Below are positions 927 through 45,098 of a stretch of DNA of 64,000 bases, piece by piece. How positions within the stretch are numbered: the first letter of the stretch is position 1; each line of letters begins with the position of its first letter. The notes under the pieces were generated by a model, which saw only the letters and a program-made list of their open reading frames with translations, did no database searches and was not told where the DNA came from. The stretch comes from Algoriphagus iocasae (GTDB lineage Bacteria > Bacteroidota > Bacteroidia > Cytophagales > Cyclobacteriaceae): NCBI RefSeq assembly GCF_014206875.1, contig NZ_JACIJO010000002.1, positions 186,001 through 250,000 on the forward strand. The letters are read 5' to 3'. The position numbers and the translations under genes are program-made.

Positions 927-1685
927 TTATTCACAAACAATTTGATCTTTAAACTTTACGCTTACCCTTGCATAGGCATTCCAGCCTTTTCGTGGTAATA
1001 TCTCCTTATAGAAGACTTCAATCTTTTTAAACTTCTCTTCAATATCCTTCGCATCACCGAACTCAATCACCTGCTTTCCCACTTGCTGCATCATTCGGAT
1101 ATCTGTCTTCGAATTCACTTCCAATTCAGGAATCTGTGCCGACCAAAACTCATCTTCAACAATGAAATTGATCAGGTCCATTAACTCAGGCATTTGCTCT
1201 ATCACATCTCCTTTTTCCATCAGCAATTCTGCCTGCTTACCCTGCAAAATCAGCACTCGGCTGGTGTATGAAGGAGAGGTGGGAATCACCTTGCCCTCCA
1301 CAGTGATGTATCCATCAGCAGCATATGGCCGCGCAATTCTTGCAATTGGCTGATGCTGCTCTATCGTTAAATTCAAAATTCCTTTTTGACCAATCGAAGC
1401 CTCCACTGATTTGATAAATGGATGGCCATTCAATCGCTTTTCGATCTCTCTCAATCGTACTTCCTCTAGCATCAAACCTGCTTTCAATTCTGGAAATGCC
1501 GCTTTCATGATCTCCTGGATTTCTTTGTCTTCGACAAAATAAACCCCGCTTACTCCCTTGATATTTATCTCCGTTCCTTGGAATGTCTTGTACATTGTCT
1601 GCTTCTCCACAAAACCTATGAAGCCGACCAGCACTGCGCAGAGCACCAGAAAAACAAGCGTCTTTTTGATCCTGATCTTTTTCAT
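927..1685 (-). CDS. ftsQ: Cell division protein FtsQ/DivIB
   Basis: Bitopic divisome protein that links early and late division proteins in the periplasm. The 252-residue product begins MKKIRIKKTLVF, with a basic cytoplasmic tip, one membrane segment (about residues 8-26), then a POTRA-type domain (about 35-110, including the RLNGHPFIKSVEAS stretch) and the FtsQ beta domain. A longer in-frame start exists at 1718, but I prefer 1685: it gives the expected short cytoplasmic tail and an ATGA overlap with the murC stop, which is the style of this operon. The identification rests on architecture and position between murC and ftsA, because FtsQ diverges strongly in sequence. Confidence 0.9.
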   Translation of the reverse strand: MKKIRIKKTLVFLVLCAVLVGFIGFVEKQTMYKTFQGTEINIKGVSGVYFVEDKEIQEIMKAAFPELKAGLMLEEVRLREIEKRLNGHPFIKSVEASIGQKGILNLTIEQHQPIARIARPYAADGYITVEGKVIPTSPSYTSRVLILQGKQAELLMEKGDVIEQMPELMDLINFIVEDEFWSAQIPELEVNSKTDIRMMQQVGKQVIEFGDAKDIEEKFKKIEVFYKEILPRKGWNAYARVSVKFKDQIVCE

Positions 1686-3094
1686 ACGACATTCAGTTTT
1701 TGTCTGGAATTCATCCAAGAAGCGATTCCTGGTACCAAACGGTCAATATCTCCTGCGCCTAAAGTCACCAAAACTTCAGGTGCTGATTTCTGCAAGTAAT
1801 CCATCAATTCCCCCTTGCTCAACACCAGTTTTTTCTTGGAATTGATTTTTTCCAAAAGCATTTCAGAAGTCACTCCTTCAATCGGAAGTTCTCTCGCAGG
1901 ATAGATATCCAGCAAAATCACCTCATCTGCCAGAGAAAGACTTTCAGAAAATCCATCTGCAAAATCTCTGGTTCTGGAATATAGATGTGGCTGGAATACC
2001 ACGGTTAGTTTGCTAGCCGGATACATGGCAATCACCGAACTCAAGCATGCTCTGATCTCTTCTGGATGATGGGCATAATCATCGATGTACACTAATGAGT
2101 TTTGATTGACATGAATTTCAAATCTCCTTTTCACTCCACGGAAAGAAGCCAGACCCTTCTTGATTTCCTCGTCTGTAATTTCATGCGCTGAAGCAATCGC
2201 GATTGCTGCCAATGCATTTTCTACATTGTGGAAACCCGGAATAAACAGCTCCAATTGAGAGATCACTTTCTGCCCATCCACATAATCAAAAACAAAAGAT
2301 CCCGGACGTGCCTGAATATTTTCTGCACGGATTCCTTCTGATCTCAGGCCATAAATTCGAGTAGGCACTTTTGGAAGCCTTGCTGCTCCCAACCGGTCTG
2401 CTGCATTGTACTGGATAAACAGCTTTCCTTTTTTATCTATCAGTTTGATAAACTCTCCAAATCCATCCAAAATGGTGTTTTCATCTCCATAGATATCCAA
2501 ATGATCCGCATCGGTGCTAGTCAAAACTGCTTCGTTTGGATGCAATCGCAAGAAGGATCTATCGAACTCATCAGCCTCCACCACCACAAATCTTTGCTTC
2601 TTGGATTTCTTCTTACCCAAAATCAAATTGCTTTCATAGTTCTGGGTAATTCCTCCTAGAAAAGCTGCAATCGGCTTTCCGGCATCTTTAAATAAATGTG
2701 CGATCAAAGAAGAAGTAGTGGTTTTCCCGTGGGTTCCAGCTACAGCAATGGTGTAGAAATTTTTGGTCACCATTCCCAAAACCTCTGATCTCTTTTTCAG
2801 AGTAAATCCATTTTCCTGGAAGTACGCCAGTTGGATACTGTTCTTAGGTATCGCCGGAGTCCATACTATCAAAGTAGATTCTGGAGACTTCTTCACATTG
2901 GCTGGAATTGTATCCAGCGAATCTTCAAAAGTCACGTTCATGCCTTCGGCGATCAACTCATCAGTCAATGGAGAAGGGGTACGGTCATATCCGGATACAT
3001 TGTATCCCTCATGCGCAAACCAACGAGCCAAAGCACTCATGCCTATGCCGCCGATTCCGAGGAAATAAACCCTATGTACACCTTCGAAGCTCAT
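1682..3094 (-). CDS. murC: UDP-N-acetylmuramate--L-alanine ligase
   Basis: Cytoplasmic ligase that adds L-alanine to UDP-MurNAc with ATP, the first peptide-stem step. It has 470 residues, a normal family length. The N-terminal Rossmann-type domain opens with FLGIGGIGMSALA (about residues 11-23). The Mur-ligase P-loop GTHGKTTT is at about 120-127, and EADEFDRSF follows near 195. The C-terminal domain contains DDYAHHPEEI, typical of MurC. The start overlaps the murG stop by four bases (ATGA) and the end overlaps the ftsQ start in the same way, which implies translational coupling. Confidence 0.97.
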   Translation of the reverse strand: MSFEGVHRVYFLGIGGIGMSALARWFAHEGYNVSGYDRTPSPLTDELIAEGMNVTFEDSLDTIPANVKKSPESTLIVWTPAIPKNSIQLAYFQENGFTLKKRSEVLGMVTKNFYTIAVAGTHGKTTTSSLIAHLFKDAGKPIAAFLGGITQNYESNLILGKKKSKKQRFVVVEADEFDRSFLRLHPNEAVLTSTDADHLDIYGDENTILDGFGEFIKLIDKKGKLFIQYNAADRLGAARLPKVPTRIYGLRSEGIRAENIQARPGSFVFDYVDGQKVISQLELFIPGFHNVENALAAIAIASAHEITDEEIKKGLASFRGVKRRFEIHVNQNSLVYIDDYAHHPEEIRACLSSVIAMYPASKLTVVFQPHLYSRTRDFADGFSESLSLADEVILLDIYPARELPIEGVTSEMLLEKINSKKKLVLSKGELMDYLQKSAPEVLVTLGAGDIDRLVPGIASWMNSRQKLNVV

Positions 3095-4173
3095 GCTACC
3101 AATTGTTCTAATTCTTTTCTAATGCCAATCGCCGCATCAGGCTTTGCCAAACTTTTAATATTTGCTCCCAATGCAATCCCGATTGCCGGATCCTGCATCA
3201 GTTCGTCTACTTTCAATTTCAATTTCCCAACCGCCTCATTGTCTTTCAGAAGCCAAGCCGCATCGTGGCTGACATAGGCCATCGCATTTTTTGTCTGATG
3301 ATCCTCAGCCACATTGGGAGAAGGAATGAAGATTACTGGCTTTCCTACCAAGGAAAGTTCAGAAACCGACAATGCACCAGCACGGGAAACAATCACATCT
3401 GCTGCTGCATAAGCCAAGTCCATTTCGCGGATAAATTCCCTCAAATGGATATGTTTTAATCCAGAAGCGTCAGTCTTTTCAAGCATGTCTTTGAAATAGA
3501 ATTTGCCTGACTGCCAAAGAACCTGATAACCCGCTTTGTCCAGTGCTTTCATGTCTTTCAGCACCGCTTGATTCAAGGTTCTTGCTCCCAAAGAGCCTCC
3601 TAAAATCAAAATGGTTTTTCTTTCCTCTTCCAATCCAAAGTGCTTCAGCGCTACTTCTCTCTTACCATTTAATTCCAGAATATCTTTTCTCACAGGGTTA
3701 CCTGTGTAGGCAATTTTATTCGCAGGGAAAAACCGCTCCATCTCTGGATAAGCGACGCAAATTCTTTTCGCTCTCTTAGCCAAAATCTTATTGGTAAGTC
3801 CAGCATAGGAGTTTTGCTCCTGAACCAAAGTTGGAATTCCCTTTCTTTGCGCAGCGAATAAAACCGGTCCGCTTGCATATCCTCCTACTCCTACCACCAC
3901 ATCTGGGCGGAAATCCATTACCATTTTTCTAGCCTTCATCAGGCTTTTCAAAAGCTTGAAAGGGAATTTCAAATTCTCCAAACTCAAGCTTCTTTGCAGA
4001 CCTGCCACTGGCAAACCTTCAATCCTATAGCCTGCTTCAGGAACCTTTTGCATTTCCATTTTGCCAAGCGCACCCACAAAAAGAATCTCGCTGTCCGGAA
4101 ATTCTTCTTTCCAGGCATTCGCAATGGCAATCGCCGGATAGATATGTCCTCCGGTTCCTCCGCCACTGATCAT
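3091..4173 (-). CDS. murG: UDP-GlcNAc:lipid I N-acetylglucosaminyltransferase
   Basis: GT-B glycosyltransferase at the inner face of the membrane that converts lipid I to lipid II. It is 360 residues from the ATG at 4173. The glycine loop MISGGGTGGHIYPA is at the very start, a second glycine loop GGSLGARTLNQAV is near residue 188, and the UDP-GlcNAc site around SELSLVGKPVIFIP is near 265. The ATG at 4173 removes most of the first beta strand that normally precedes the glycine loop. The frame is open upstream to a TAA at 4213-4215, and it encodes KRTYRI just before M1 but contains no ATG, GTG or TTG. Initiation at a near-cognate codon (ACG at 4194 or ATC at 4200) is possible; see findings. Confidence 0.95.
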   Translation of the reverse strand: MISGGGTGGHIYPAIAIANAWKEEFPDSEILFVGALGKMEMQKVPEAGYRIEGLPVAGLQRSLSLENLKFPFKLLKSLMKARKMVMDFRPDVVVGVGGYASGPVLFAAQRKGIPTLVQEQNSYAGLTNKILAKRAKRICVAYPEMERFFPANKIAYTGNPVRKDILELNGKREVALKHFGLEEERKTILILGGSLGARTLNQAVLKDMKALDKAGYQVLWQSGKFYFKDMLEKTDASGLKHIHLREFIREMDLAYAAADVIVSRAGALSVSELSLVGKPVIFIPSPNVAEDHQTKNAMAYVSHDAAWLLKDNEAVGKLKLKVDELMQDPAIGIALGANIKSLAKPDAAIGIRKELEQLVA

Positions 4174-4201
4174 GATGCGATATGTTCTTTTCGTTTCGAT
4201 G

Positions 4202-5368
4202 TTATACTGGTTTTAATCTTGATTTATTCGCTGCAGTAACACTGCTCATTTCTTCATCCTGATGATCTCCTCGACTGACAGACAGAATGATTCCCAAAGA
4301 AATCCCTGTAAATACCAATGAAGTACCACCCATACTTAATAGAGGCAAAGGCAATCCGGTAATCGGTCCTAATCCGACCGCAACGGCCATGTTTACCAAA
4401 GCCTGAATCACTAATGCAAAGCTCAATCCGGCAGATAATAAACCTCCAAATGCCTTATTGGAATTGGCGACAATCCGCATCCCTCGATAGAGCAAAGCCA
4501 GATATAAAAAGAGAACTGAAACGCCTCCAACCAAGCCATATTCTTCGATGATAATTGCATAAATGAAATCTGAATAAGGGTGAGGAAGTGAGTTTCTTTG
4601 CTCACTGTTCCCCGGTCCTTTTCCAGTCACCCCTCCAGTAGCAATCGCGATGTAAGATTGCTCTGCCTGGAATGGAACATCTTCCTTATCCATAAATGCC
4701 TCGATTCTGGAGAAGAAGGTTTCCCCTCTTTGTCCAAGAAATACCGCTGCTGTCAATCCGAGCATACCTACCATCACTACCATTGCCAGATATTTCACCG
4801 GAACTCTCCCCACAAACATGATAAGCAGGCAGGTCAACAAAAGGAGAATGGCTGTGGACATATTTGCCAAAGCGATCAATAAACAGATCACGCCGATCGC
4901 AATAATGATCGGAACGAAGGTGTTTTTGAAGTCTTTGATATTATTCTGTTTGCTCGCCAGCATCGCTGCCAAAGCTGCAATCAGGGCTAGTTTTGCTAAG
5001 TCTGAAGGTTGGAAAGCCTGGTTAATCACAGGGATCGTCAACCAACGATTTGCCTCATTGATATTGGAACCAAACATGTAAGTCAGTGCCAATAGAGGAA
5101 TGGACAAGTACATGGCCAGTCGGGCATACAAAGCATAATTTCTATATGGAATCTTATGTGCAAACCACATCACTACCAGTGAAACCAATACCAGAAATGA
5201 ATGTCTGAACAAATACACTTCCGTATTGCCGCCAGCATATTTATAGGCCAAGGAACCCGTGGCGGAGTAAACCACCAGAATGCTGAACAGCGACAATAAG
5301 ATCACAATCCCCCAAATCAGAGGATCTCCCTTAAAGTGCTCATCTATCCATGCTTTAAACTGATTCAT
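4202..5368 (-). CDS. ftsW: SEDS peptidoglycan polymerase FtsW
   Basis: Polytopic membrane glycosyltransferase of the SEDS family that polymerises lipid II at the septum with its partner class B PBP. It has 388 residues and about ten hydrophobic segments. The conserved periplasmic-loop motif LPHPYSDFIYAIIIEEYG spans about residues 261-278, with D267 as the likely catalytic Asp (family knowledge). NRWLTIP and QPSDLAKLAL near residues 107-129 are also typical. It could be called RodA from sequence alone; the position between murD and murG decides for FtsW. The start overlaps murD (ATGA), and 28 bases separate its stop from the murG ATG. Confidence 0.93.
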   Translation of the reverse strand: MNQFKAWIDEHFKGDPLIWGIVILLSLFSILVVYSATGSLAYKYAGGNTEVYLFRHSFLVLVSLVVMWFAHKIPYRNYALYARLAMYLSIPLLALTYMFGSNINEANRWLTIPVINQAFQPSDLAKLALIAALAAMLASKQNNIKDFKNTFVPIIIAIGVICLLIALANMSTAILLLLTCLLIMFVGRVPVKYLAMVVMVGMLGLTAAVFLGQRGETFFSRIEAFMDKEDVPFQAEQSYIAIATGGVTGKGPGNSEQRNSLPHPYSDFIYAIIIEEYGLVGGVSVLFLYLALLYRGMRIVANSNKAFGGLLSAGLSFALVIQALVNMAVAVGLGPITGLPLPLLSMGGTSLVFTGISLGIILSVSRGDHQDEEMSSVTAANKSRLKPV

Positions 5369-34596: not shown

Positions 34597-37500
34597 TTAT
34601 TTCATCCCCTCAAATTTTGATTTTACATCTTTAAACTTCGATTTTAACTCTTCGAAACGCTCGTAGGCATCTTGCCCTGGTTTCTGATCAGCCTGACCTA
34701 GCATTGATCCTAAATATCTTACCTGATCCTGAAGCATTGGCTGCATGTATGTACCGTCTTCTGTGACCAGTTCATGGTAAAGAACATCCAGCTGATCCTT
34801 TTTGACTTTTGCACTTCGAACTGGATTTTCTTTGTCCAATACAAGTTCTAATGCTTCTCTTTCTTTTTCGATTTCAACAATCAATTTCTCCACTTCATCT
34901 CGGAAAGACTGAATCTGTAGGGACAATGCTTCTTGCTCAGCCACATCTGCATCCGTCACCATGGTAACTCTTGGGTCAAGCACAACTTCAAATTCTCCTT
35001 CTACCATTTCATCACCAGCAATCAATCTTGCTTTATAAGTACCAGTTGCCACCATTGGTCCATTTCCTGTGTAAGCTTTTTTAGGATCCTTATCCCATCC
35101 CCCTTGGTGCCTCATGTTCCAGTTAAAATGGTTCATCCCTGCCTTGTTTGGTAAACCTTTGGAAGCTGGAGCTTCAGAAAACTCAGTAGACATATTTCTA
35201 GTCGTATCAACCTCAGGTTCCTTTGGCCCATCGGCCAAATAGGCGTGAACCACTTCTCCTTTTTCATTTAGAATCTCTAAACGTAGATTTTCCTTCTTTT
35301 CTGCCAAATAGTAATCCAGATTCGCGGCAGCTCGTGGATATTCAGGGCCATTAGTTTCTCCTCTTGCAGAAAGGAAATTTCTTATTGCTGGCTTGGTTTC
35401 AAACAATACTACTCCTCTATTTCCGATGGAAGTGATTCCTCTTAAACTGATCAGGTTATCCAAAATCCAGAATCCACGTCCCATCGTTGACATCACCAAA
35501 TCATCTTGGTGAATCTTGATATCTGTAATCGGCGTTACAGGAAGGTTGCTTTTAAAAGGCGTCCAGGTTTCTCCATCGTTCATCGAAATAAATAAACCAA
35601 ACTGAGTTCCGGCATAAAGAACTCCTTCTTTCTCAGGATCCTCTCTTGTTACCAAAGTTGGGTAATCAGCCGGGATTCCGTTTGACCCGGTGCTCAATAA
35701 CTTCCAGGATTTTCCATAATCTTCAGTCTTGTAGATATATGGCTTGTCATCACCCATTAGGTATCTCAAAACAGTAACATAAGCTTTAGCAGGATTGTGA
35801 GGAGAAGGTTCCACAGCATCCACTCTTCCACCCTTCGGCATGTCTGGTGTCACATTTTCCCAGGTTTTTCCTCCATCTTTTGTGACATGAACAGGTCCAT
35901 CATTGGCGCCTACCCAAATCAAACCTTCTTGGATGGGAGATTCACGAATGGCGTAGATCGTACTGTAATATTCCTCTCCTGTCACATCTCTGGTAATTGG
36001 AGAGCCAGGCACCACTTGTTTGTCTGGTTCAAAAGCTGTCAAATCCGGAGAAATAATTTCCCAGGTTTTGCCATCGTCTGTTGTCTTGTGCACATACTGA
36101 GAAGTATGATAAACCACGTCAGGATTGTGTGGCGAAACATGAATTGGTGCAACTCGCTGGAATCTGAATTTCAAATCTTTAGGATTGTGTCCATAGATAT
36201 TTGCTGCTCCCACATAATATTGCATCTCCTGACCGGACGTTTTATCATAAACTCCAAATCGCCCTTTACAATTAGAATAGACAATATTAGGATTTCCAGG
36301 CTTTGGCACGGCCGGCCCAGTTTCACAACCTCCTACATTGATGAAAAATGCATTGGCACCAGCTTGGGCACTGAATGGAGGCATACTTGGAACTGCTATC
36401 GCGCTGTAATTATCCTGCTGACCAGCATACAACCAGTACGGATATTGATCATCCACTTCCACCGTGTAGAGTTCAGCTGTCGGTTGATTAAATTGGGAGG
36501 ACCAGCTTTTTCCTGAATTCTGGGTAATGTTTGCTCCACCGTCATTTGCCTGAATCCAAATTGTAGTGTCATTTGGGTTAATCCATATATCATGATTATC
36601 ACCATGAGGAGTAGAAATGGATTTCCAGGATTTACCTCCATCAAAAGACCTTAGAAACCTTAAGGAATTGTTATATACCGTGTTGGCATCTTTCGGATTT
36701 GCGTAAATGTTGGTGTAATAAAACGGTCTATTCGTCAAGTTGGCATTATCGGAAACAAACTCCCAGTTTTCTCCTCGGTCTGCAGATCTATACAATCCTC
36801 CCTGATCGTCAGATGCTTCAATATTGGCATACACGACATTTGGATCTGCCGGAGAAACTGCAAAATCAATTTTCCCTGTAAGGCCAGTTGGAAGTCCTTT
36901 ACTTAATTTATTCCAGGTTTTTCCTCCGTCAGTAGATTTATAAACGCCTCCTTCCGAAGATCCAGAAGTAATGGTCCAAGGTTTTCTTTCTCCCCTCCAA
37001 GCTCCTGCATAAATAGTATTTGGATCATCTGGAGCAAGTTCAAGATCGGAAACACCAACGCTGTCAGAATGGTAAAAAACCTTTTCCCAACTCTTTCCAC
37101 CATCGATCGTTTTGAAAACTCCTCTTTCTTCATTTTTCTGAAAAGCCTGACCAATGGCCGCCACATATACGATATCCGGATTATCTGGATGGATCTCGAC
37201 AGAACCAATTTGCCCACTTTCCTTGAGGCCCACAAAAGCCCAGGTTTTTCCCTCATCTGTGGTTTTGTAAACACCCTTTCCTGTGATCACATTGGACCGT
37301 AAGCCATCAGAGCCAGTTCCTACATAGATAATTTCAGGCTTTTTCTGGTAAACAGAAATTGCTCCGATGGAAGGTGTTGGAAAATAGCCATCAGAAATAT
37401 TTTCCCAGGTAATCCCGTAATCTTCTGTTTTCCAAACCCCTCCTCCTGTGGCTCCCATATAAAAAAGTGAAGGCTTTGAAGCAACCCCAGCGACGGCAGT

Positions 37501-37629
37501 CACCCTTCCTCCTCTAAGTGGGCCGACATTTCGGAACTTATAGGAATTTAAAAGAGGGGTTAAGTCCTGGCAAAAGGCAACAATGCTCAATGGAATAAGA
37601 AAGGCGGTGGTCAGTAGCTTTTTTAGCAT
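34597..37629 (-). CDS. Large secreted BNR/sortilin-like beta-propeller protein
   Basis: A 1010-residue exported protein whose signal peptide begins MLKKLLTTAFLIPLS; an upstream in-frame ATG at 37686 would precede it. The first about 740 residues hold many repeats of the type GVYKTTDGGKTW or GLYRSADRGENW, the BNR/Asp-box turns that mark VPS10/sortilin and sialidase-like propellers; I count roughly ten or more. The C-terminal third has a beta domain and a helical end (EVEKLIVEIEKEREALEL). Such proteins are often labelled glycosyl hydrolase, but I see no catalytic residues that prove it. Function is not assigned. Confidence 0.8.
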   Translation of the reverse strand: MLKKLLTTAFLIPLSIVAFCQDLTPLLNSYKFRNVGPLRGGRVTAVAGVASKPSLFYMGATGGGVWKTEDYGITWENISDGYFPTPSIGAISVYQKKPEIIYVGTGSDGLRSNVITGKGVYKTTDEGKTWAFVGLKESGQIGSVEIHPDNPDIVYVAAIGQAFQKNEERGVFKTIDGGKSWEKVFYHSDSVGVSDLELAPDDPNTIYAGAWRGERKPWTITSGSSEGGVYKSTDGGKTWNKLSKGLPTGLTGKIDFAVSPADPNVVYANIEASDDQGGLYRSADRGENWEFVSDNANLTNRPFYYTNIYANPKDANTVYNNSLRFLRSFDGGKSWKSISTPHGDNHDIWINPNDTTIWIQANDGGANITQNSGKSWSSQFNQPTAELYTVEVDDQYPYWLYAGQQDNYSAIAVPSMPPFSAQAGANAFFINVGGCETGPAVPKPGNPNIVYSNCKGRFGVYDKTSGQEMQYYVGAANIYGHNPKDLKFRFQRVAPIHVSPHNPDVVYHTSQYVHKTTDDGKTWEIISPDLTAFEPDKQVVPGSPITRDVTGEEYYSTIYAIRESPIQEGLIWVGANDGPVHVTKDGGKTWENVTPDMPKGGRVDAVEPSPHNPAKAYVTVLRYLMGDDKPYIYKTEDYGKSWKLLSTGSNGIPADYPTLVTREDPEKEGVLYAGTQFGLFISMNDGETWTPFKSNLPVTPITDIKIHQDDLVMSTMGRGFWILDNLISLRGITSIGNRGVVLFETKPAIRNFLSARGETNGPEYPRAAANLDYYLAEKKENLRLEILNEKGEVVHAYLADGPKEPEVDTTRNMSTEFSEAPASKGLPNKAGMNHFNWNMRHQGGWDKDPKKAYTGNGPMVATGTYKARLIAGDEMVEGEFEVVLDPRVTMVTDADVAEQEALSLQIQSFRDEVEKLIVEIEKEREALELVLDKENPVRSAKVKKDQLDVLYHELVTEDGTYMQPMLQDQVRYLGSMLGQADQKPGQDAYERFEELKSKFKDVKSKFEGMK

Positions 37630-37802
37630 AGAGTTTTTCGGTTGATCGCAGAATATAATCGGATTTTGATTGAAAAAACAAAGCAATTATAGGAATGGAA
37701 AAAATGTGATGCTATGATGACTTTAGAAGCAATGGTGTTAAGCTATTCTTGAATCTATATTCCATTTTGGAAAAAAATAATTCTAAATTTTTTCACCTTT
37801 TG

Positions 37803-37832
37803 ATAGGGGTAAGTGCTAGATGAGTTGTCCTA
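37803..37832 (+). promoter_or_regulatory. Predicted ECF-type promoter of the sigma/FecR operon
   Basis: ATAGGGGT (37803-37810), 14 bases, then TTGTCCTA (37825-37832). The same layout and nearly the same sequence occur at 41158-41187 before a second gene of this locus. GGGGT and GTC at this distance resemble -35 and -10 elements of ECF sigma factors, so this is probably the sigma factor's autoregulated promoter. Confidence 0.65.
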
Positions 37833-37883
37833 TTTATAATAACCATTCAAAACCTTAACTTGCAGGATCAGCAAAATGCCTCC

Positions 37884-38465
37884 ATGCAAACAAGCGATCA
37901 AATGATTTTTCAGTCGATCAAGTCAGGTGATGAAAATGCACTGGAGATGTTATTTAAAGAATATTATCAGCCCCTCTGTCGCTACGCAAATTCCTATTTG
38001 GGAGATCCCGATGACGCAGAAGAAGTGGTGCAAAACTGCTTTATCAAGCTTTGGGAAAAAAGAGAATCCATTCTCATCCAAAGTTCAGTCAAATCCTATC
38101 TCTATCAGATCATCCGAAATGCCTGTCTCAACGAAATCAAGCATCAAAAAGTGAAAAGAAATTATGGAGAAATGATTTCTCAGGAAGGAGAGCAGTTGGG
38201 AGAAGCTTCAGATCAATCCACTCTCAAAAGCGAATTGGAGGAGAAGATTGCAATTGCACTTCAGACTTTGCCACAGCAATGTAGATTGATTTTCACCATG
38301 AGCAGATTCGAAGAATTGAAATACAAGGAGATCGCCGACCAATTAAACCTATCTATCAAAACGGTAGAAAATCAAATGGGTAAAGCCCTGAAATTGATGC
38401 GCACGCAATTACAGGAATATTTACCGTTGATTATTTTGATTTTAAACATCAGTCTGGAAGGATGA
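37884..38465 (+). CDS. ECF RNA polymerase sigma factor (FecI-like)
   Basis: A 193-residue sigma-70 of the extracytoplasmic function group. Region 2 (about 20-85) has EYYQPLCRYANSYLGDPDDAEEVVQ, here given only as residues of region 2.1-2.2. Region 4 (about 130-182) has ELKYKEIADQLNLSIKTV, the -35-binding helix-turn-helix. The ATG at 37884 is preferred to an in-frame TTG at 37860. The stop overlaps the FecR-like anti-sigma gene start (ATGA), so the pair is co-translated and activity is probably controlled by that partner through an outer-membrane signal. Confidence 0.93.
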   Translation: MQTSDQMIFQSIKSGDENALEMLFKEYYQPLCRYANSYLGDPDDAEEVVQNCFIKLWEKRESILIQSSVKSYLYQIIRNACLNEIKHQKVKRNYGEMISQEGEQLGEASDQSTLKSELEEKIAIALQTLPQQCRLIFTMSRFEELKYKEIADQLNLSIKTVENQMGKALKLMRTQLQEYLPLIILILNISLEG

Positions 38466-39442
38466 ACGAGCAAGAAGAATTCTATATCGACAGTCTGATC
38501 GCCAAATACATCGTTGGCGAAATAAGCTCTCAAGAAGAAAAGCAGCTGATGGATTGGTGCGCACTTTCTGATCAAAATCAAAAAGTCTTGGATGATGAAT
38601 TGCTGATTTTCCAAAAGGCGAATCTTGGCTCAGATCAATCTTTTGATGCAGAACTCGCCTGGAAAAAGATCCAGCCTAAAATTCAAAAGACTAAAAAAGG
38701 AAAAGTCATTGCATTTCCAGTTTGGAAAGTGGCCGCCGGATTTATCCTGATTTGCGCCATGGCCTTCCTGATTTATCAGCAACTCAACCAACCTGAAAAG
38801 TTTGAATTTCTGAGTGAAAATCAAGTTGAAACCCAAATTCTTCCCGATCAAACAAGCATTTCTCTAAACAGAGGTTCTGAGGTAAATGTGGAGTACAATG
38901 AAAAGAAAAAGACAGGGCTCATTAAACTGAGTGGAGAATCTTTGATATCAATTCCCGAAGACAAAAAAGTAAACTGGCAAGTTCAGGTAGACCAGCTTTT
39001 GATAGAAGATATCGGGACGGTTTTTAATGTGAATGCGTATCCAGAAAACCCGATTGTCGAGGTGACTGTCATCGAAGGTGAAGTCAGGATGTATTTGAAT
39101 TCACAGGAGGGCATAAACATAAATCTATTGGCAGGAGAAAAGGGTACTTTCGATAAATCTACCGGAGTATTTTCCAAAGCCGAGGCAGAATCAAATGTTG
39201 CTGCCTACAGTTCAAGATCTTTCTCTTATTTCAATGATGATTTAGCTTCGATTATTGACCAACTTTCTGAAGTTTATCAAAGGCCTATAAGACTCGAAGG
39301 AGCAATTGGAAATTGCCGATTGACGGTAGATTTTGAAAATGAGGAATTGGATACGATTTTGGGCATCATTGCCGAAACCTTAAATTTGGAAATCAAAACA
39401 TCAGGAAACGAAATCGTACTTTCCGGAGAGTCCTGCAATTAA
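38462..39442 (+). CDS. FecR-family anti-sigma factor
   Basis: A 326-residue transmembrane anti-sigma regulator. The cytoplasmic N-terminus (about 1-88) would hold the sigma factor, a single membrane helix follows (about 89-107), then the periplasmic FecR domain (about 115-225, with LLIEDIGTVFNVNAYPE and VTVIEGEVRM) and a C-terminal DUF4974/STN-like domain (about 253-320). In the known Fec-type pathway the periplasmic part contacts an STN domain of an outer-membrane receptor. Here the only STN protein is the next gene, 8 bases downstream, which is not a TonB receptor. Confidence 0.93.
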   Translation: MNEQEEFYIDSLIAKYIVGEISSQEEKQLMDWCALSDQNQKVLDDELLIFQKANLGSDQSFDAELAWKKIQPKIQKTKKGKVIAFPVWKVAAGFILICAMAFLIYQQLNQPEKFEFLSENQVETQILPDQTSISLNRGSEVNVEYNEKKKTGLIKLSGESLISIPEDKKVNWQVQVDQLLIEDIGTVFNVNAYPENPIVEVTVIEGEVRMYLNSQEGININLLAGEKGTFDKSTGVFSKAEAESNVAAYSSRSFSYFNDDLASIIDQLSEVYQRPIRLEGAIGNCRLTVDFENEELDTILGIIAETLNLEIKTSGNEIVLSGESCN

Positions 39443-39450
39443 TTTTTTCA

Positions 39451-41130
39451 ATGAAGCATCACTTTTACCAGTTTGCATTTGCCCTGATACTGGCAATAAC
39501 CTCATGCAGCTATGTCATAGCGCAGCAAAATTCTCTTTTGGAAAAAAGAGTCAGTATGAATGCTGAGTCAGAACCACTTGATGCATTCTTGAATCGCTTG
39601 TCCAAGGAAGTTGGAGGTGTATTTTCTTACAGCCCCTCCACACTGGACATCAACAGAACAATTACTGGGAGTTTTTCTGATCAATCATGCCGGGAAGTTC
39701 TGGAAGAAGTTTTTGATGGATCGATCAATTACAAGCAAAAGGGTGTCTATCTAATTCTAACTCCTGCCCCACCAGCTGAAAAAGAAATCACAATTAGTGG
39801 CTACGTGGTGGATCAAAAATCAGGGGATAGAATCCAAAATGCGACTGTTTATAACCCCATCACATTGCAATCTTCTGTCACGGATGAATTTGGTTTTTTT
39901 GAATTTCAGGTAAAAAATCCAGCTGAAGAAAATTTTGAATTAATCGTCAAAAAGAAGGATTATGCTGACACCTTGCTCGTCGAAAGCCGAACATCCAGAT
40001 TTCAGAAAATTTTCTTGAAAGGAGAAGGAGAAGATGCTTCACCTATCGTTCGCAGCCTCACGGAGCCGATGAAAAACTTTTGGATCTGGACCAAAAACTC
40101 GGTTGGATTTACCAACCTGGAAAACGTCCCGGACACGCTGCATCGAGGTTTTCAACTTTCATTCGTTCCTTTTATTGGTACCAACAGAAAAATTTCTGGC
40201 TCGGTAACCAATGATTTCTCTCTCAATGTTTTGGGAGGTTTTTCCGGAGGAACAGAAAAAGTTGAAATTGGCGGGCTTTTCAATATCAACCGAAGAAATG
40301 TAAAATTCTTTCAGGCGGCAGGACTTTTCAATCAGGTCGGCGGTACAGTCAAAGGCTTTCAGGTGGCAGGTTTAACAAACGTCAATTTGGATTCTGTAAA
40401 AGCAGCCCAGTTTGCCGGGATTGCCAACTTCACCACAGGTCCAGCTTCAGGCTTACAGACCGCTGGTGTTTTTAATATTTCTACTTCTGACATAAAAGGT
40501 GTTCAGCTTGCTGGAGTTGCCAATTACACCCATAAAAATGTCTATGGCGGTCAAATAGCAGGGATTTTGAACATTGGCAAAAATGTGAATGGATTCCAAC
40601 TTGGATTGCTAAACTATTCTGACAGCACCTCTGGCACGCCCATTGGTTTGATCAGTTTTGTGAGAAAAGGCTACCATAAAGTGGAAATTGGAGCTGATGA
40701 AGTACTTCCACTGAATATTTCTTTGAGGACAGGAACGAGAGGATTTTACAATATGATTTTCGCTGGGATGCGTCCTGAAAAAGCTGATTCTGTAACCTGG
40801 GCTTTCGGATATGGTGTGGGCACATCACCCAGGCTGGCGAAAAAGCTATTTTTAAATTTTGAGCTTAGCTCACAGCAATTGATCAAAGGAAATATCCAAG
40901 CTTTAAACCTGATCAACCGAGCCTATTTAGGCTTAGATTACCAGTTTGCAAATAAGGTCGGCATCTACGCAGGACCTAGTATCAATCTTCGTGTTTACGA
41001 CAGCACTTTCAGTGATCACCCGGATTTATTTTCTTATATGAACCCTAAAATCATCTCTGAAAATGACTTCCAAGGTGATCTAAAAAGTCAACTTTGGTGG
41101 GGTTTCCGAGCTGGAATACGCTTTTTTTAA
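39451..41130 (+). CDS. STN-domain outer-membrane protein with QxAGxxN repeats
   Basis: A 559-residue protein with a signal peptide (an ITSC at 16-19 could be read as a lipobox, but cleavage near AQQ at 24-26 is as likely). An STN (secretin/TonB short N-terminal) domain covers about 35-105, and a carboxypeptidase-regulatory-like beta domain (ISGYVVDQKSGDRIQNATVY) about 115-195. Then come six units of about 16 residues (288-382, consensus QxAGxxNxxxxxVxG). The C-terminal 150 residues are beta-rich and end FRAGIRFF, a terminal aromatic as in outer-membrane barrels. No TonB plug is present. It probably acts as signal donor to FecR; this is inference. The repeats recall the LA_2272-type surface repeats named from Leptospira. 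Confidence 0.8.
   Translation: MKHHFYQFAFALILAITSCSYVIAQQNSLLEKRVSMNAESEPLDAFLNRLSKEVGGVFSYSPSTLDINRTITGSFSDQSCREVLEEVFDGSINYKQKGVYLILTPAPPAEKEITISGYVVDQKSGDRIQNATVYNPITLQSSVTDEFGFFEFQVKNPAEENFELIVKKKDYADTLLVESRTSRFQKIFLKGEGEDASPIVRSLTEPMKNFWIWTKNSVGFTNLENVPDTLHRGFQLSFVPFIGTNRKISGSVTNDFSLNVLGGFSGGTEKVEIGGLFNINRRNVKFFQAAGLFNQVGGTVKGFQVAGLTNVNLDSVKAAQFAGIANFTTGPASGLQTAGVFNISTSDIKGVQLAGVANYTHKNVYGGQIAGILNIGKNVNGFQLGLLNYSDSTSGTPIGLISFVRKGYHKVEIGADEVLPLNISLRTGTRGFYNMIFAGMRPEKADSVTWAFGYGVGTSPRLAKKLFLNFELSSQQLIKGNIQALNLINRAYLGLDYQFANKVGIYAGPSINLRVYDSTFSDHPDLFSYMNPKIISENDFQGDLKSQLWWGFRAGIRFF
40312..40596 (+). repeat. Six 48-bp-period coding repeats (QxAGxxN units)
   Basis: Five units of 16 residues and one of 15, each starting Gln-x-Ala-Gly and with Asn at position 7, for example QVAGLTNVNLDSVKAA. 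They encode residues 288-382 of the STN protein. Confidence 0.85.
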
Positions 41131-41157
41131 AATTTCTGAAAAAAAATTACTGACCGA

Positions 41158-41187
41158 ATAGGGGTTGGAAAGTTTTCGATTGTCATA
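41158..41187 (+). promoter_or_regulatory. Second ECF-type promoter in the sigma/FecR locus
   Basis: ATAGGGGT (41158-41165), 14 bases, then TTGTCATA (41180-41187), 24 bases before the ATG at 41211. It matches the site upstream of the sigma factor gene in both elements and in spacing, and is preceded by an A-rich tract. Confidence 0.65.
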
Positions 41188-41210
41188 GAACCGAAAACTA
41201 AACCAACATT

Positions 41211-42410
41211 ATGAAAACGGTTCAAAGACTTATAGTAGCAGCTCTTTTATTTGGGTTTAATCCTATTGACTCATTTTCACAGTCTGAATCAGATACTACC
41301 GAAAAAGAGATCATCAATCATACGGAGCTTCAAATTTCTATTGTTCCTTATTTGGGAACCAATGGAGGTAATTCAGGAAATACGATCAATGATTTCTCAT
41401 TCAATTTATTTGGAGGTTATTCTGCAGGTACAAACAAACTGGAATTAGCGGGCTTATTTAACATCAACCGATTTGATGTAAAGCATGCGCAATTTGCCGG
41501 GATTTTCAACCAAGTAGGAGGTTCATTTGAAGGAGCCCAATTTGCAGGAATTGTGAATTCCACTTTGGATTCCATCCAGGGTGTTCAGGGCGCTGGAATC
41601 GTAAATTTCACAACTGGAAAAGTGGATGGAGCCCAAATGGCCGGAATCACCAATTTCACCAGCAAGTCAATGAGAGGATTCCAAGGTGCCGGAATTTTGA
41701 ATTTCGCTGGTCAAAATCTTACTGGGTTTCAAGGCGCGGGTATTGCTAATTTCGCAGGAGGAAATGTCCACGGAGTCCAAGCGGCAGGAATTTTGAATTT
41801 CACTCCAAAAGATGTCCAAGGTGCGCAAATCGCGGGTATTCTGAATTTTGCCAGAAATGTAAAAGGAAGTCAAATCGGATTAATAAACTATTCCGATAGC
41901 ATCACAGGAGCTCCAATTGGATTGATCAGTTACGTGAAAAGCGGCTATCACACCTTGGAAATAAGTACGAATGAGGTCATGCCACTGAACCTTGCATTCA
42001 GGACAGGGACAAGAAGTTTTTATAACATTATCACTGCAGGATTCCGACCAGAGATTAGAAATGAAACTGTCTGGGCTTTTGGATATGGTCTAGGAAGCTC
42101 TCCGAGACTTGGAAAAAACACCTTCTTGAACATCGAACTGACTTCTGAACAAATGCAAAAAGGCAATGTCGAAGCGCTGAATCTGATCAATCGGTTTTAT
42201 ATAGGAGCCGATTTCCAAGTGGCTAATAAGTTTGGGATTTTTGCCGGTCCGACTATCAATTACCGAATTTACGAAACATCCTTTGACCAGCATCCAGAGC
42301 TATTTTACTACAACGGATTCCAAACTTTTTCGGAACATACTTTCCGCTACAATAAGGATCTAGCTGGTCAATTCTGGTGGGGATTCCGTGCTGGAATCCG
42401 ATTCCTATAA
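41211..42410 (+). CDS. Paralogous outer-membrane repeat protein without STN domain
   Basis: A 399-residue exported protein (signal peptide ending near SFSQ, residue 24) that aligns with the C-terminal part of the preceding gene product but lacks its STN and carboxypeptidase-regulatory domains. Eight QxAGxxN units (residues 94-220) are followed by the same INYSDSITGAPIGLISYVKS stretch and a beta-rich barrel-like region ending FRAGIRFL. The relation indicates a tandem duplication with loss or gain of the N-terminal module. It has its own predicted ECF promoter. It may modify or extend the surface structure sensed by the locus; function is unknown. Confidence 0.75.
   Translation: MKTVQRLIVAALLFGFNPIDSFSQSESDTTEKEIINHTELQISIVPYLGTNGGNSGNTINDFSFNLFGGYSAGTNKLELAGLFNINRFDVKHAQFAGIFNQVGGSFEGAQFAGIVNSTLDSIQGVQGAGIVNFTTGKVDGAQMAGITNFTSKSMRGFQGAGILNFAGQNLTGFQGAGIANFAGGNVHGVQAAGILNFTPKDVQGAQIAGILNFARNVKGSQIGLINYSDSITGAPIGLISYVKSGYHTLEISTNEVMPLNLAFRTGTRSFYNIITAGFRPEIRNETVWAFGYGLGSSPRLGKNTFLNIELTSEQMQKGNVEALNLINRFYIGADFQVANKFGIFAGPTINYRIYETSFDQHPELFYYNGFQTFSEHTFRYNKDLAGQFWWGFRAGIRFL
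41490..41870 (+). repeat. Eight 48-bp-period coding repeats (QxAGxxN units)
   Basis: Seven 16-residue units and a last 15-residue one, residues 94-220 of the paralogue, for example QGAGILNFAGQNLTGF. They are more uniform than the six units in the neighbouring gene, which suggests more recent expansion. Confidence 0.88.
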
Positions 42411-42487
42411 TCCTTTAAAATCCTAAAAACAACCTTCCTGAATTTATTCAGGCTGGAATCCTATTGTCTAAAAACCCTAACAAGCAC

Positions 42488-44836
42488 ATGGAAACAATAT
42501 TAAAAACCTATTTATTTCTAATGCTTTCTCTTTTAAGTTTTGCGGCCAAAACTCAAACTCTTTCTCAAACTATTAGAGGGAAAGTGGTAGACCAAGTGAC
42601 TCAAATTCCAATGCCCGGAGCAACAGTCATGGTGTTAAATACTGATCCGCTTTTGGGTGAAATCACCAATGAACTTGGAGAATTTAAAATCCCTGCTGTC
42701 CCTATTGGTTCGCAAACCTTACGGGTAAGTTTTGTAGGCTACAAGGACATCATTCTTCCAAATATCCAGGTCAATTCCGGTAAGGAAGTGGTTTTACAGA
42801 TTGCATTGGAAGAGGATATCACACAAATCCAAGAGTTTGTAGTCACCGCCACTGACAAAGACCGAACTATCAATGAAATGGTTGTAGTCAGCGGAAGAAC
42901 GTTCTCCGTGGAAGAAGCCAGAAAGTTTGCTGCCGCAGTGAATGATCCGGGAAGAATGGCTATTTCGTTTTCAGGAGTTGTGGGAACAGATGATGGGAAT
43001 AATACGATCTCTGTCCGCGGAAACAGCCCAAACGGTTTGCTTTGGAGAATGGAAGGAATCGACATCCCTAACCCAAATCACTTTGTCAATCCTGGCAGTT
43101 CGGGAGGCGGAGTGTCTATTTTGAGCAGCCAACTGCTCGCCAATTCGGACTTTCTTACAGGAGCTTTTGCTGCGGAATATGGCAATGCACTTTCCGGAGT
43201 GTTTGATCTAAATCTCAGAAAGGGCAATAATGAAAATCAGGAATTTACTGTTCAGGCTGGCTTTTTGGGATTGGATCTTGCGGCAGAAGGACCAATCGCT
43301 AAAAATTACCGAGGCTCTTACTTGGTCAATTATAGATATTCAACACTTTCCCTACTTTCAAAACTAGGCTTACCATTGGGTGATTTTGTCACCAACTTTC
43401 AGGATCTGTCTTTCAATGTGTACCTTCCCACTGGCAAAAAAAGCAGTATTTCGCTTTTTGGATTTGGTGGATTGAGTGATCAAAAAAGTAATGCAGAGTC
43501 TGACTCCTTGATTTGGGAGAGTGAAGGAGACCGATATAGTTCCAAATTTTTGTCCAATACCGGGGCTGTGGGAATCAAGTATTCAACGACATTAAACCAA
43601 TCCAACTTCCTGCAAACAACTCTTTTGGCTTCGGGGAATACTATTGGAGATCAAGGTTCGCGTTTGGACAATGAATATTTTAATGAAGATCGCTACGATG
43701 AAAAATTCAGTAATTCCAAAATCACTTTCAGTTCGGTTTTAAACTCCAAACTCTCTGCACGATCCAGCTTAAGATCTGGTATCTATCTGAACCAATTGTA
43801 CTACACACTCTATCAGGAAAATTATGATAAGGACGTAAAACGTTTGGTAAAAAACATTGATTCAGATGGAAGTACTCAAAGTATCCAGGCCTTTTCCCAG
43901 TGGAATTATCGGGCCACAGATCGGCTGACGGTGAACTTGGGATTACATTACCTCCAGCTTTTGCTGAATAACTCAAATTCACTTGAGCCTAGAGCGAGCA
44001 TTTCCTATGAATTGGATGAAAAACAGCGCCTGAGCTTCGGATATGGACTTCATAGTCAAGTTCAGCCACTTGGGACTTACTTTGCAGAAAAAGAAATATC
44101 AGGCCAAATCACTTTGCCAAACCACGACTTAGACCTGAGTAAATCACACCATTTTGTATTGGGATACGATCGTTCACTCAATCCTTTACTTCGTCTAAAA
44201 ATCGAAACCTATTACCAGCATTTATTCCAGATTCCAATCAAAGAAGGAGCTGATCAAACCTATTCCATTATCAATCAGGAATGGTCATTTGCAACCGACC
44301 CATTGATCAATAAAGGCTATGGAAAAAATTATGGAGTGGAAATGACTTTGGAACAGTTTACCCATAACAATCTCTATTTCCTTCTTTCAACTTCATTGTA
44401 TAATTCCCAATACAAAACCCAAGAAAATGTCTGGAGAAACACCCGATTCAATGGAAACCTGAATGTCACTTTTACTGGCGAGAAAGAATTTGAATTAAGA
44501 AAAAACAGAACATTGGGAATCAATATTCGGGGAATTTACGGTGGAGGATTGCGGACCACTCCAATCCTGCTGGATGAATCTATTCAAAAAGGCGAAACCG
44601 TACTGGATGATTCCAAAGCTTTTGAAGAACAAAATCCTGCTTATTTCAGAACTGATTTGAGGTTAAGTTTAAAAAGGAACAAGGAAAAATCGACCAGAAT
44701 CTGGGCATTGGATATTCAAAATGCTACCAATCGAAAAAATATTTATGGAAGATATTATGAGCCTATGGACTCAGAAATCAAAACTTCCTATCAAGCACCT
44801 TTAATTCCAATTTTAAGTTATAGGGTTGAATTCTAA
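42488..44836 (+). CDS. TonB-dependent receptor with carboxypeptidase-like N-terminal domain
   Basis: A 782-residue outer-membrane receptor. After the signal peptide (to about residue 24) comes a carboxypeptidase-regulatory-like domain (about 25-110, IRGKVVDQVTQIPMPGATV), then a plug domain (about 125-240, with SVRGNSPNGLLWRMEGIDI and AAEYGNALSGVFDLNLRKG) and a long beta-barrel to a C-terminal Phe (SYRVEF). There is no STN domain. No SusD-like partner gene follows. The ATG at 42488 is preferred to an in-frame TTG at 42464. A short CCTGAA-TTTA-TTCAGG hairpin lies at 42437-42452 in the 77-base gap upstream. The ligand is unknown. Confidence 0.9.
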   Translation: METILKTYLFLMLSLLSFAAKTQTLSQTIRGKVVDQVTQIPMPGATVMVLNTDPLLGEITNELGEFKIPAVPIGSQTLRVSFVGYKDIILPNIQVNSGKEVVLQIALEEDITQIQEFVVTATDKDRTINEMVVVSGRTFSVEEARKFAAAVNDPGRMAISFSGVVGTDDGNNTISVRGNSPNGLLWRMEGIDIPNPNHFVNPGSSGGGVSILSSQLLANSDFLTGAFAAEYGNALSGVFDLNLRKGNNENQEFTVQAGFLGLDLAAEGPIAKNYRGSYLVNYRYSTLSLLSKLGLPLGDFVTNFQDLSFNVYLPTGKKSSISLFGFGGLSDQKSNAESDSLIWESEGDRYSSKFLSNTGAVGIKYSTTLNQSNFLQTTLLASGNTIGDQGSRLDNEYFNEDRYDEKFSNSKITFSSVLNSKLSARSSLRSGIYLNQLYYTLYQENYDKDVKRLVKNIDSDGSTQSIQAFSQWNYRATDRLTVNLGLHYLQLLLNNSNSLEPRASISYELDEKQRLSFGYGLHSQVQPLGTYFAEKEISGQITLPNHDLDLSKSHHFVLGYDRSLNPLLRLKIETYYQHLFQIPIKEGADQTYSIINQEWSFATDPLINKGYGKNYGVEMTLEQFTHNNLYFLLSTSLYNSQYKTQENVWRNTRFNGNLNVTFTGEKEFELRKNRTLGINIRGIYGGGLRTTPILLDESIQKGETVLDDSKAFEEQNPAYFRTDLRLSLKRNKEKSTRIWALDIQNATNRKNIYGRYYEPMDSEIKTSYQAPLIPILSYRVEF

Positions 44837-44867
44837 TGACAGGAATTGGTCTTAAATACGGGATGTC

Positions 44868-44916
44868 GGTCACCCTGAGCGGAGTCGAAGGGTCCTCGAC
44901 TCCGCTCGGACTGACC
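44868..44916. repeat. Intergenic palindromic element (GAGCGGAGTCGA type)
   Basis: Perfect 12-base arms GAGCGGAGTCGA (44877-44888) and TCGACTCCGCTC (44896-44907) with a 7-base loop, extended imperfectly to GGTCA/TGACC at the ends. It is clearly richer in GC than its surroundings. From general knowledge, CTGAGCGGAGTCGAAGG-type sequences recur between genes in many Bacteroidota, so this is probably a member of a dispersed repeat family. It could also serve as a terminator for the TonB receptor gene. Confidence 0.75.
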
Positions 44917-45098
44917 CGCATATCGTGCAATTAAATCAATCTTTCATTAGTAGCATTGGAGCAACAAAAGTCGCGTAAAACGAAAGCCTAACGAAGCGAA
45001 ATAAAAAACATTTCTATTTGGAGAATCTCGTTTCTCAAGTGGTCAATGTGACAAAAATAAATTATAAAACAACCTCTAATTTTCGATTTTCTTGAGTT

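Follow-up and report, generated by a model that had tools for sequence, protein, structure and literature searches.

An STN domain on a predicted solenoid-barrel protein beside an ECF sigma/FecR pair in Algoriphagus iocasae

Within a 64,000-nucleotide stretch of the Algoriphagus iocasae genome (contig NZ_JACIJO010000002.1, positions 186,001 to 250,000; hereafter the window), one locus encodes an extracytoplasmic function (ECF) sigma factor, a FecR anti-sigma factor, a protein that joins STN and carboxypeptidase-like (CPD) domains to repeats and a barrel (the 39451 product), a second repeat-barrel protein (bar2, the 41211 product) and a TonB-dependent receptor (Table 1). We propose, with a probability of roughly 60%, that the locus is a surface-signalling unit of the ECF sigma/FecR type in which STN is carried by a predicted outer-membrane protein made of a β-solenoid and an 8-stranded barrel, the likely sensor controlling FecR. 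Textbook surface signalling ties sensor and importer together in one protein. Read from sequence, the locus has a fusion of STN and CPD to a repeat/barrel part, a tight operon that is conserved, a bar2 protein and a receptor that both lack STN, and a common promoter-like motif. This motif, and a sister form of the receptor that does bear STN, are new relative to the preliminary description of this DNA.

Architecture of the locus and of the STN protein

By their spacing, the sigma, FecR and 39451 genes form one tight operon: the open reading frames (ORFs) of sigma and FecR overlap by 4 bases and a gap of 8 bases separates FecR from the 39451 ORF, a linkage remarked on in the preliminary description and borne out by the ORF coordinates. 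The bar2 ORF follows the 39451 ORF after 80 bases. The sigma factor is of the FecI/Bacteroidetes type (Sig70_bacteroi1, TIGR02985, 189.6 bits against a cut-off of 126.4), and the FecR product, in which the FecR and FecR_C domains both exceed their Pfam cut-offs, has with its hydrophobic segment the make-up of a membrane anti-sigma factor.

In the 39451 product, Pfam STN scores 29.0 bits (cut-off 28.4) and CarbopepD_reg_2, the CPD, 26.8 bits, below its cut-off of 32.2. Plug has no Pfam match in the product and is absent from the matched-family table of 61 aligned members (window included), all of which match CPD and 44 of which match STN at E ≤ 0.01; the earlier assignment of STN and a carboxypeptidase-like domain to a plug-less repeat protein thus stands. 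Residues of the STN region are invariant across these members, for example L47, F58, S59, Y60, S61, R81, L84 and E85. The QxxGxxN repeats have a period of exactly 16 residues, with six copies in the 39451 product and eight in bar2, and the AlphaFold2 model runs from STN through a CPD/NTE domain and a β-solenoid formed by the repeats to an 8-stranded, OmpA-like barrel, so that the 16-residue repeats and barrel-like C-terminus described before are refined to a modelled solenoid followed by a separate barrel. Foldseek rows for the model include the PupA signalling-domain structure 2a02 (E 0.13), and a PDB sequence search with the 39451 family returned nothing but a PilQ fragment (E 0.15). The defining parts of a TonB-dependent transducer are a Plug and a 22-stranded barrel; the 39451 product has no Plug, and its barrel is modelled with 8 strands.

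Two other explanations of this architecture were rejected. Transmembrane hairpins do not account for the repeats, as the 39451 model has short solenoid strands ahead of the barrel, with the caveat that the model of the 41211 protein is poor in the repeat region. A missed plug or STN is excluded by the scans of relatives (61 repeat-protein members, 12 receptor members). The N-terminus of the STN protein has a lipobox-like ITSC.

The name "STN and carboxypeptidase regulatory-like domain-containing protein" is given by NCBI to the close relatives P0003 and P0083; the STN-CPD architecture is already catalogued by this naming, which is an architecture label. The same phrase occurs in PMC12893687, a text on the gut barrier and ageing. 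Judged from their result listings, literature searches yielded no functional study of an STN-CPD-repeat protein, and those for a described system of such form returned nothing, or known kinds.

The bar2 protein has no Pfam match. It shares 56% identity with the stretch 304-558 of the 39451 product and scores 25.1 bits for LA_2272_repeat in NCBIfam (cut-off 25), a likeness to the LA_2272 surface repeat family (NF047436) that also appears in the NCBI name of the relatives P0153 and P0179; unlike that family, the 39451 product scores 14.0 bits, below the cut-off of 25, and carries STN and CPD. Beside the bar2 gene, locus L034 has a gene (2292-3008, minus strand) with kin in L036, L037 and L038, all of one cluster and 201-238 amino acids (aa) long. 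The 238-aa L034 product matches PagL weakly (18.6 bits, below the cut-off of 23), and in all four loci an instance of the motif described below lies just downstream of the bar2 gene on the same strand.

The receptor matches CPD at 58.7 bits and Plug at 22.7 bits, slightly below the Pfam cut-off of 23.9. Its CPD starts directly after the signal peptide, which leaves no space for STN; STN has no match in the receptor and is absent from the matched-family table of 12 aligned members (window included), all 12 of which match CPD and Plug at E ≤ 0.01. The receptor had been described as lacking STN, and this is confirmed. A receptor-family profile search matched NTE domains and scaffoldins only, and a single-receptor search gave no match.

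Table 1. Features of the locus in window coordinates, and non-receptor STN proteins of a second type in the coordinates of their own loci.
Feature	Coordinates	Strand	Details
ECF sigma factor ORF	37860..38465	+	Likely start ATG 37884; TIGR02985 189.6 bits; Sigma70_r2 and r4_2
FecR anti-sigma factor	38462..39442	+	PF04773 45.3 bits, PF16344 38.9 bits; 326 aa
FecR segments			Hydrophobic segment at about residues 82-107 (hydropathy); FecR_C at residues 255-319
STN-CPD-solenoid-barrel protein, 559 aa	39451..41130	+	Pfam scan; model; FecR directly upstream in 69/69 relatives
STN domain, residues 33-105 of the 39451 product	39547..39765	+	PF07660 29.0 bits; modelled strand-helix fold
CPD/NTE-like domain, residues 111-192 of the 39451 product	39781..40026	+	
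β-solenoid with 16-residue repeats (modelled), residues ~229-405 of the 39451 product	40135..40665	+	
8-stranded C-terminal barrel (modelled), residues ~406-559 of the 39451 product	40666..41127	+	Last residue F
bar2, second solenoid-barrel protein, 399 aa	41211..42410	+	No STN or CPD
STN-less TonB-dependent receptor	42488..44836	+	CPD, plug, barrel; ORF from 42464, likely ATG 42488
Promoter-like motif GATAGGGGTAAGTGCTAGATGAGTTGTCCTAT, 5′ of sigma	37802..37833	+	29.7 bits, best in window
Second promoter-like motif AATAGGGGTTGGAAAGTTTTCGATTGTCATAG, 5′ of bar2	41157..41188	+	27.1 bits, second best in window
Second non-receptor STN type, L170	3830-5269		
Second non-receptor STN type, L172	3800-5206		
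Second non-receptor STN type, L173	3839-5266		
Second non-receptor STN type, L174	3809-5215		
Second non-receptor STN type, L175	3824-5182		
Second non-receptor STN type, L176	3074-4321	-	

Gene order and FecR partners in relatives

The 39451 product finds a match in 116 of 148 genomes of the family, some of them through STN or the barrel alone. From these we chose strong STN-plus-barrel matches as the first 40 loci, a selection that carries a bias; a further 29 loci were weaker or more distant matches, 20 from the family and 9 from other families. The order sigma, FecR, STN-barrel gene is kept in 40/40 of the first set, and in the second FecR lies upstream in 29/29 and sigma in 28/29 (L130 shows no sigma). 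Combined, FecR is directly upstream of the STN-barrel gene in all 69 fetched relatives and sigma is present in 68, so that the gene-order survey suggested in the preliminary description came out in favour of conservation. In the fetched flanks of 11 STN-less solenoid-barrel genes from other families, neither sigma nor FecR occurs.

A scan of named genomes, whose loci share species with the 40 and 29 fetched ones, gave 61 loci, 57 of them with a fused ORF; of these 57, FecR lies immediately upstream in 55 and sigma in 55, both misses starting at a contig end. Among the other four, three have no STN ORF (L247, L249, L252), and in L223, from Algoriphagus vanfongensis, the STN-barrel gene is split into two ORFs of 170 and 385 aa, preceded by sigma and FecR ORFs of the usual length. 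A chance assembly of domains is excluded by this gene order, kept without exception wherever upstream sequence exists.

A search of the A. iocasae genome with FecR_C gave 12 matches: eight FecR-sized frames over the cut-off, three within STN receptors, and one sub-threshold frame that contains a stop and where the FecR profile found nothing. Each of the other seven FecR genes is followed by a receptor of 1101-1194 aa with CPD and Plug, and the 39451 product is the only plug-less neighbour among the eight. STN was seen by Pfam scan in the receptors of L313, L314 and L189 (over the cut-off in L313 only) and barely in L187 (E 0.084); in L315 it was seen by the genome search only (E 0.0078), and the L185 and L186 receptors match an STN-CPD profile, not Pfam STN. 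In the L189, L313 and L314 receptors STN lies ahead of the CPD/NTE domain, opposite to the order reported for SusCs, where NTE precedes STN (PMC7782687).

The FecR tree (102 rows) splits at a support of 97. One side of 69 rows holds 64 FecRs with solenoid-barrel partners and five with short non-receptor partners; the other holds all 23 with receptor partners, eight of the solenoid type and two with short partners (L181 being cut by a contig end). Because of this split, with eight solenoid-type FecRs on the receptor side, partner type in the sequences compared is strongly clustered and has switched more than once. Both readings of the preliminary description, the repeat protein as sensor or as a relay for the receptor, need the STN protein to be the partner of FecR, and this is supported by the gene order, the contrast with the STN-less genes (0/11) and the FecR tree.

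A second type of non-receptor STN protein, 415-479 aa long, occurs at the sigma/FecR loci L170 and L172-L176. It has STN and CPD in all except L176, its C-terminal part is unassigned, and at four of the loci (L170 and L173-L175) its gene follows sigma and precedes FecR. In L184, L265, L267, L268, L270 and L272, an STN-CPD-receptor gene of some 911-935 aa stands in 8-9.5 kb of fetched sequence that gave no sigma or FecR match; the L184 gene, from A. iocasae (1559-4297; G000 C2:65209), overlaps a 240-aa ORF without a Pfam match by 4 bases.

A promoter-like motif at the locus and before unlinked receptors

A promoter-like motif with the consensus ATAGGGGTAAA-N11-TTGTCATA precedes both sigma and the bar2 gene; upstream of sigma, its AGGGGT starts 79 nt 5′ of ATG 37884. 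The core AGGGGT-N14-TTGTC has two matches in the 5.4-Mb genome, both at the locus, and the reversed pattern has four; allowing G in first position adds one genome match outside the locus. A strict form (A or G first) was searched on both strands of the 69 relative loci, 902,804 bp in all, and gave 52 matches against 0 for the reversed control. Of these, 44 fall inside the windows from −250 to +60 of sigma, FecR, bar2 or receptor genes (sigma 17/68, FecR 10/70, bar2 13/26, receptor 4/31), and none is in the same windows of the STN gene (0/69). The distances from motif to ORF start are alike, at 33-39 for FecR, 43-56 for bar2 and mostly 63-82 for sigma. Conservation extends beyond the search pattern, with T at −1 in 54/54, A at −2 in 85%, and A (61%), T (76%) and A (70%) after TTGTC.

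The first 40 loci supplied 41 sites to train a weight matrix, to which the window contributed no site; 10 bits served as the site threshold. Sites of at least 10 bits occur in 17/29 held-out loci, against 2.4% of 1500 random windows (true sites included); the 11 STN-less loci have no such site in their upstream windows. Across the 64-kb window the two best matches are at the two expected places (Table 1), and the next scores 12.3 bits. In the named set, whose species overlap with those of the training loci, the motif precedes sigma in 51/56, bar2 in 31/31, the receptor in 16/34, FecR in 2/56 and the STN gene in 0/55. As the motif precedes sigma, FecR, bar2 and receptor genes and, in these loci, never the STN gene, the latter is likely expressed only together with FecR, with bar2 and the receptor as probable further targets. 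A general promoter of all FecI-type sigma factors here was considered and rejected: no site of at least 10 bits is present in 12 upstream windows of the own-genome loci L184-L187 and L189 (in L184 an STN receptor stands without FecR), or anywhere in the FecR loci L313-L315 of the same genome.

The motif also precedes receptors that are not beside the locus. Among 20 unlinked regions at the start of the best receptor relatives, 18 holding a receptor start and two a bar2-plus-receptor pair, it occurs in 10, against 0/20 in control genomes that lack a strong STN-solenoid-barrel match (Fisher p 0.0004). Five of the test regions had a motif seen beforehand (G015, G093, G140, G084, G066), and without them the comparison is 5/15 against 0/20 (p 0.009). 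The control genomes have no or a weak 39451 match among the matches listed (a few are in unlisted rows), and the control receptors are less similar to the window receptor, those of G110 and G083 being of STN-bearing size; restricted to test receptors below 700 bits, the counts are 4/14 against 0/20 (p 0.022), or against 0/18 without G110 and G083 (p 0.028). The STN locus of G067 is known only as a match in the 148-genome search.

Sensor, relay or envelope monitor

Receptor-borne-STN surface signalling is the parent kind of the present system. Like FecI-FecR-FecA and FoxI-FoxR-FoxA, the locus has an ECF sigma factor, a FecR with FecR_C, an adjacent STN-bearing envelope protein and probable autoregulation; unlike them, it has STN on a predicted plug-less solenoid with a small barrel, and its receptor is STN-less. 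In FecIRA the STN domain is at the N-terminus of the TonB-dependent receptor; here it is on the plug-less 39451 product. The preliminary description knew of no characterised system of this form, a statement that now needs two qualifiers. VreA of VreA-VreI-VreR (PUMA3) in Pseudomonas aeruginosa is likewise a non-receptor STN protein at a sigma/anti-sigma locus, reported to be largely soluble, by prediction and by observation, and probably periplasmic, its C-terminal domain being TolA-like (PMC2729926); the C-terminal part of the 39451 product is instead modelled as a solenoid and an 8-stranded barrel, which is predicted to lie in the outer membrane. Dma of Bacteroides is also a Bacteroidota ECF sigma system under an anti-sigma factor linked to a β-barrel (PMC13088901); there the barrel is within the anti-sigma chain, and here FecR and the barrel protein are separate ORFs that would be joined via STN and FecR_C. 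The system thus differs from FoxA/FoxR, VreA and Dma.

We propose the following model. The barrel would fix the STN protein in the outer membrane, and the STN, CPD and solenoid parts would face the periplasm. The STN domain would bind the FecR C-terminus and hold or protect FecR until the barrel or solenoid meets a signal, as in FoxA/FoxR, where STN is reported to hold the anti-sigma factor already without signal and to protect it from proteolysis (PMC11637429). On signal, FecR would be cleaved and sigma freed to read AGGGGT-N14-TTGTC promoters, by which it may raise its own operon in positive feedback, the bar2 gene and, in many genomes, the STN-less TonB receptor. The signal may be a ligand that the receptor imports or an altered state of the outer membrane.

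The locus receptor falls in one clade (support 100) of 39 rows, 32 STN-less and seven STN-bearing, the latter nested; two of the seven are cut by contig ends, and all 32 STN-less rows were drawn from solenoid-barrel loci or the window, which biases that number. In the canonical manner, the STN-bearing members are encoded immediately downstream of sigma/FecR; in L263, whose contig is cut, the gene follows FecR. This clade, and the promoter motif common to the receptor and the STN-barrel operon in cis and, in other genomes, unlinked, are consistent with a relay in trans, in which the STN-less TonB receptor is the true sensor and the STN-barrel protein only relays what that receptor senses, STN having been split off the receptor. 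We consider such a relay rather unlikely. A common promoter is expected for a mere target as well, and genomes that lack a strong STN-barrel match can still encode a family receptor of STN-less size (such as the 807-aa frame of G011 and the 801-aa frame of G013), which argues that the STN-less form is independent of the STN-barrel protein. Furthermore, G082, G130, G010 and G047 have the sigma-FecR-STN-barrel locus and no family receptor at E ≤ 1e-60 (7 candidates scored per genome). Because of these four genomes the receptor looks dispensable for the system, and the barrel protein is favoured as the core sensor with the receptor as output; of the two readings first offered, the data lean to the repeat protein as sensor, and the relay stays as its rival. 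The scanned neighbours common to receptor-less loci (a desaturase, phosphatidylserine decarboxylase, glutamate dehydrogenase, DUF4254 and one unmatched) gave no lead.

A barrel that monitors lipid or envelope status, in the manner of Dma and not for a nutrient, is a little more doubtful again. Dma2 is described as an anti-sigma domain, a transmembrane helix, a disordered tether and a C-terminal β-barrel, and is tied to vesicle formation (PMC13088901), and the genes beside bar2 in four relatives, which fall in one cluster, include that of the weakly PagL-like L034 product; that match is under its cut-off, however, and in many genomes the probable regulon extends to a TonB receptor, a sign of uptake. 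A vestigial STN fusion, with FecR answering to another protein, would fit the low Pfam STN scores and is very improbable given the invariant STN-region residues of the 61 aligned members and a FecR linkage without exception among loci having upstream sequence.

Several observations weigh against the proposed explanation of the locus. The STN score of the 39451 product is barely above the cut-off and 17 of the 61 members miss E 0.01. The structure prediction that had been called for gave the domain succession above for the 39451 product, but the model has a predicted template modelling score (pTM) of 0.54, the placement of its domains is uncertain and none of its Foldseek rows reaches E ≤ 0.001; the bar2 model is weak (mean pLDDT 71.9). 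Eight of 72 solenoid-type FecRs sit among receptor-type FecRs, and the receptor family is downstream in just 21 of the first 40 loci. The strict motif is upstream in 37/69 loci and in none of the windows of the other 32, weak sites (10.3-11.1 bits) are present in 3/41 upstream windows of other STN loci, and across the family, genome-wide counts of a looser pattern are often not above the reversed control (3 against 4 in G000). Most distant matches are therefore chance, and position carries the case for the motif.

On a wider view, to which we give about even odds, the locus represents a Bacteroidota family of receptor-free surface-signalling switches, in which STN-CPD acts as a movable module that couples various outer-membrane proteins to FecR. 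Here an OmpA-sized barrel on a β-solenoid stalk would be the sensor commanding a dedicated sigma promoter, which would drive a stripped-down TonB receptor that elsewhere bears STN, sensing and uptake having been separated in evolution. Members of a single receptor clade occur both with the signalling domain and without it, and here the domain is on a small barrel protein beside sigma/FecR, a natural experiment on what STN needs for signalling and a counterpart of the Dma anti-sigma factors built from two proteins. The predicted promoter, with two sites only in the genome, is an easy reporter target.

Two features flank the locus. Divergent from the sigma gene, a Sortilin/VPS10-type BNR-repeat protein is encoded at 34597-37686 (minus strand), and the same neighbour is found at the locus in L044 and L045. 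On the other side, 3′ of the receptor gene, a GC-rich, inverted-repeat-like stretch, gagcggagtcgaagggtcctcgactccgctcgg, lies at 44860-44930.

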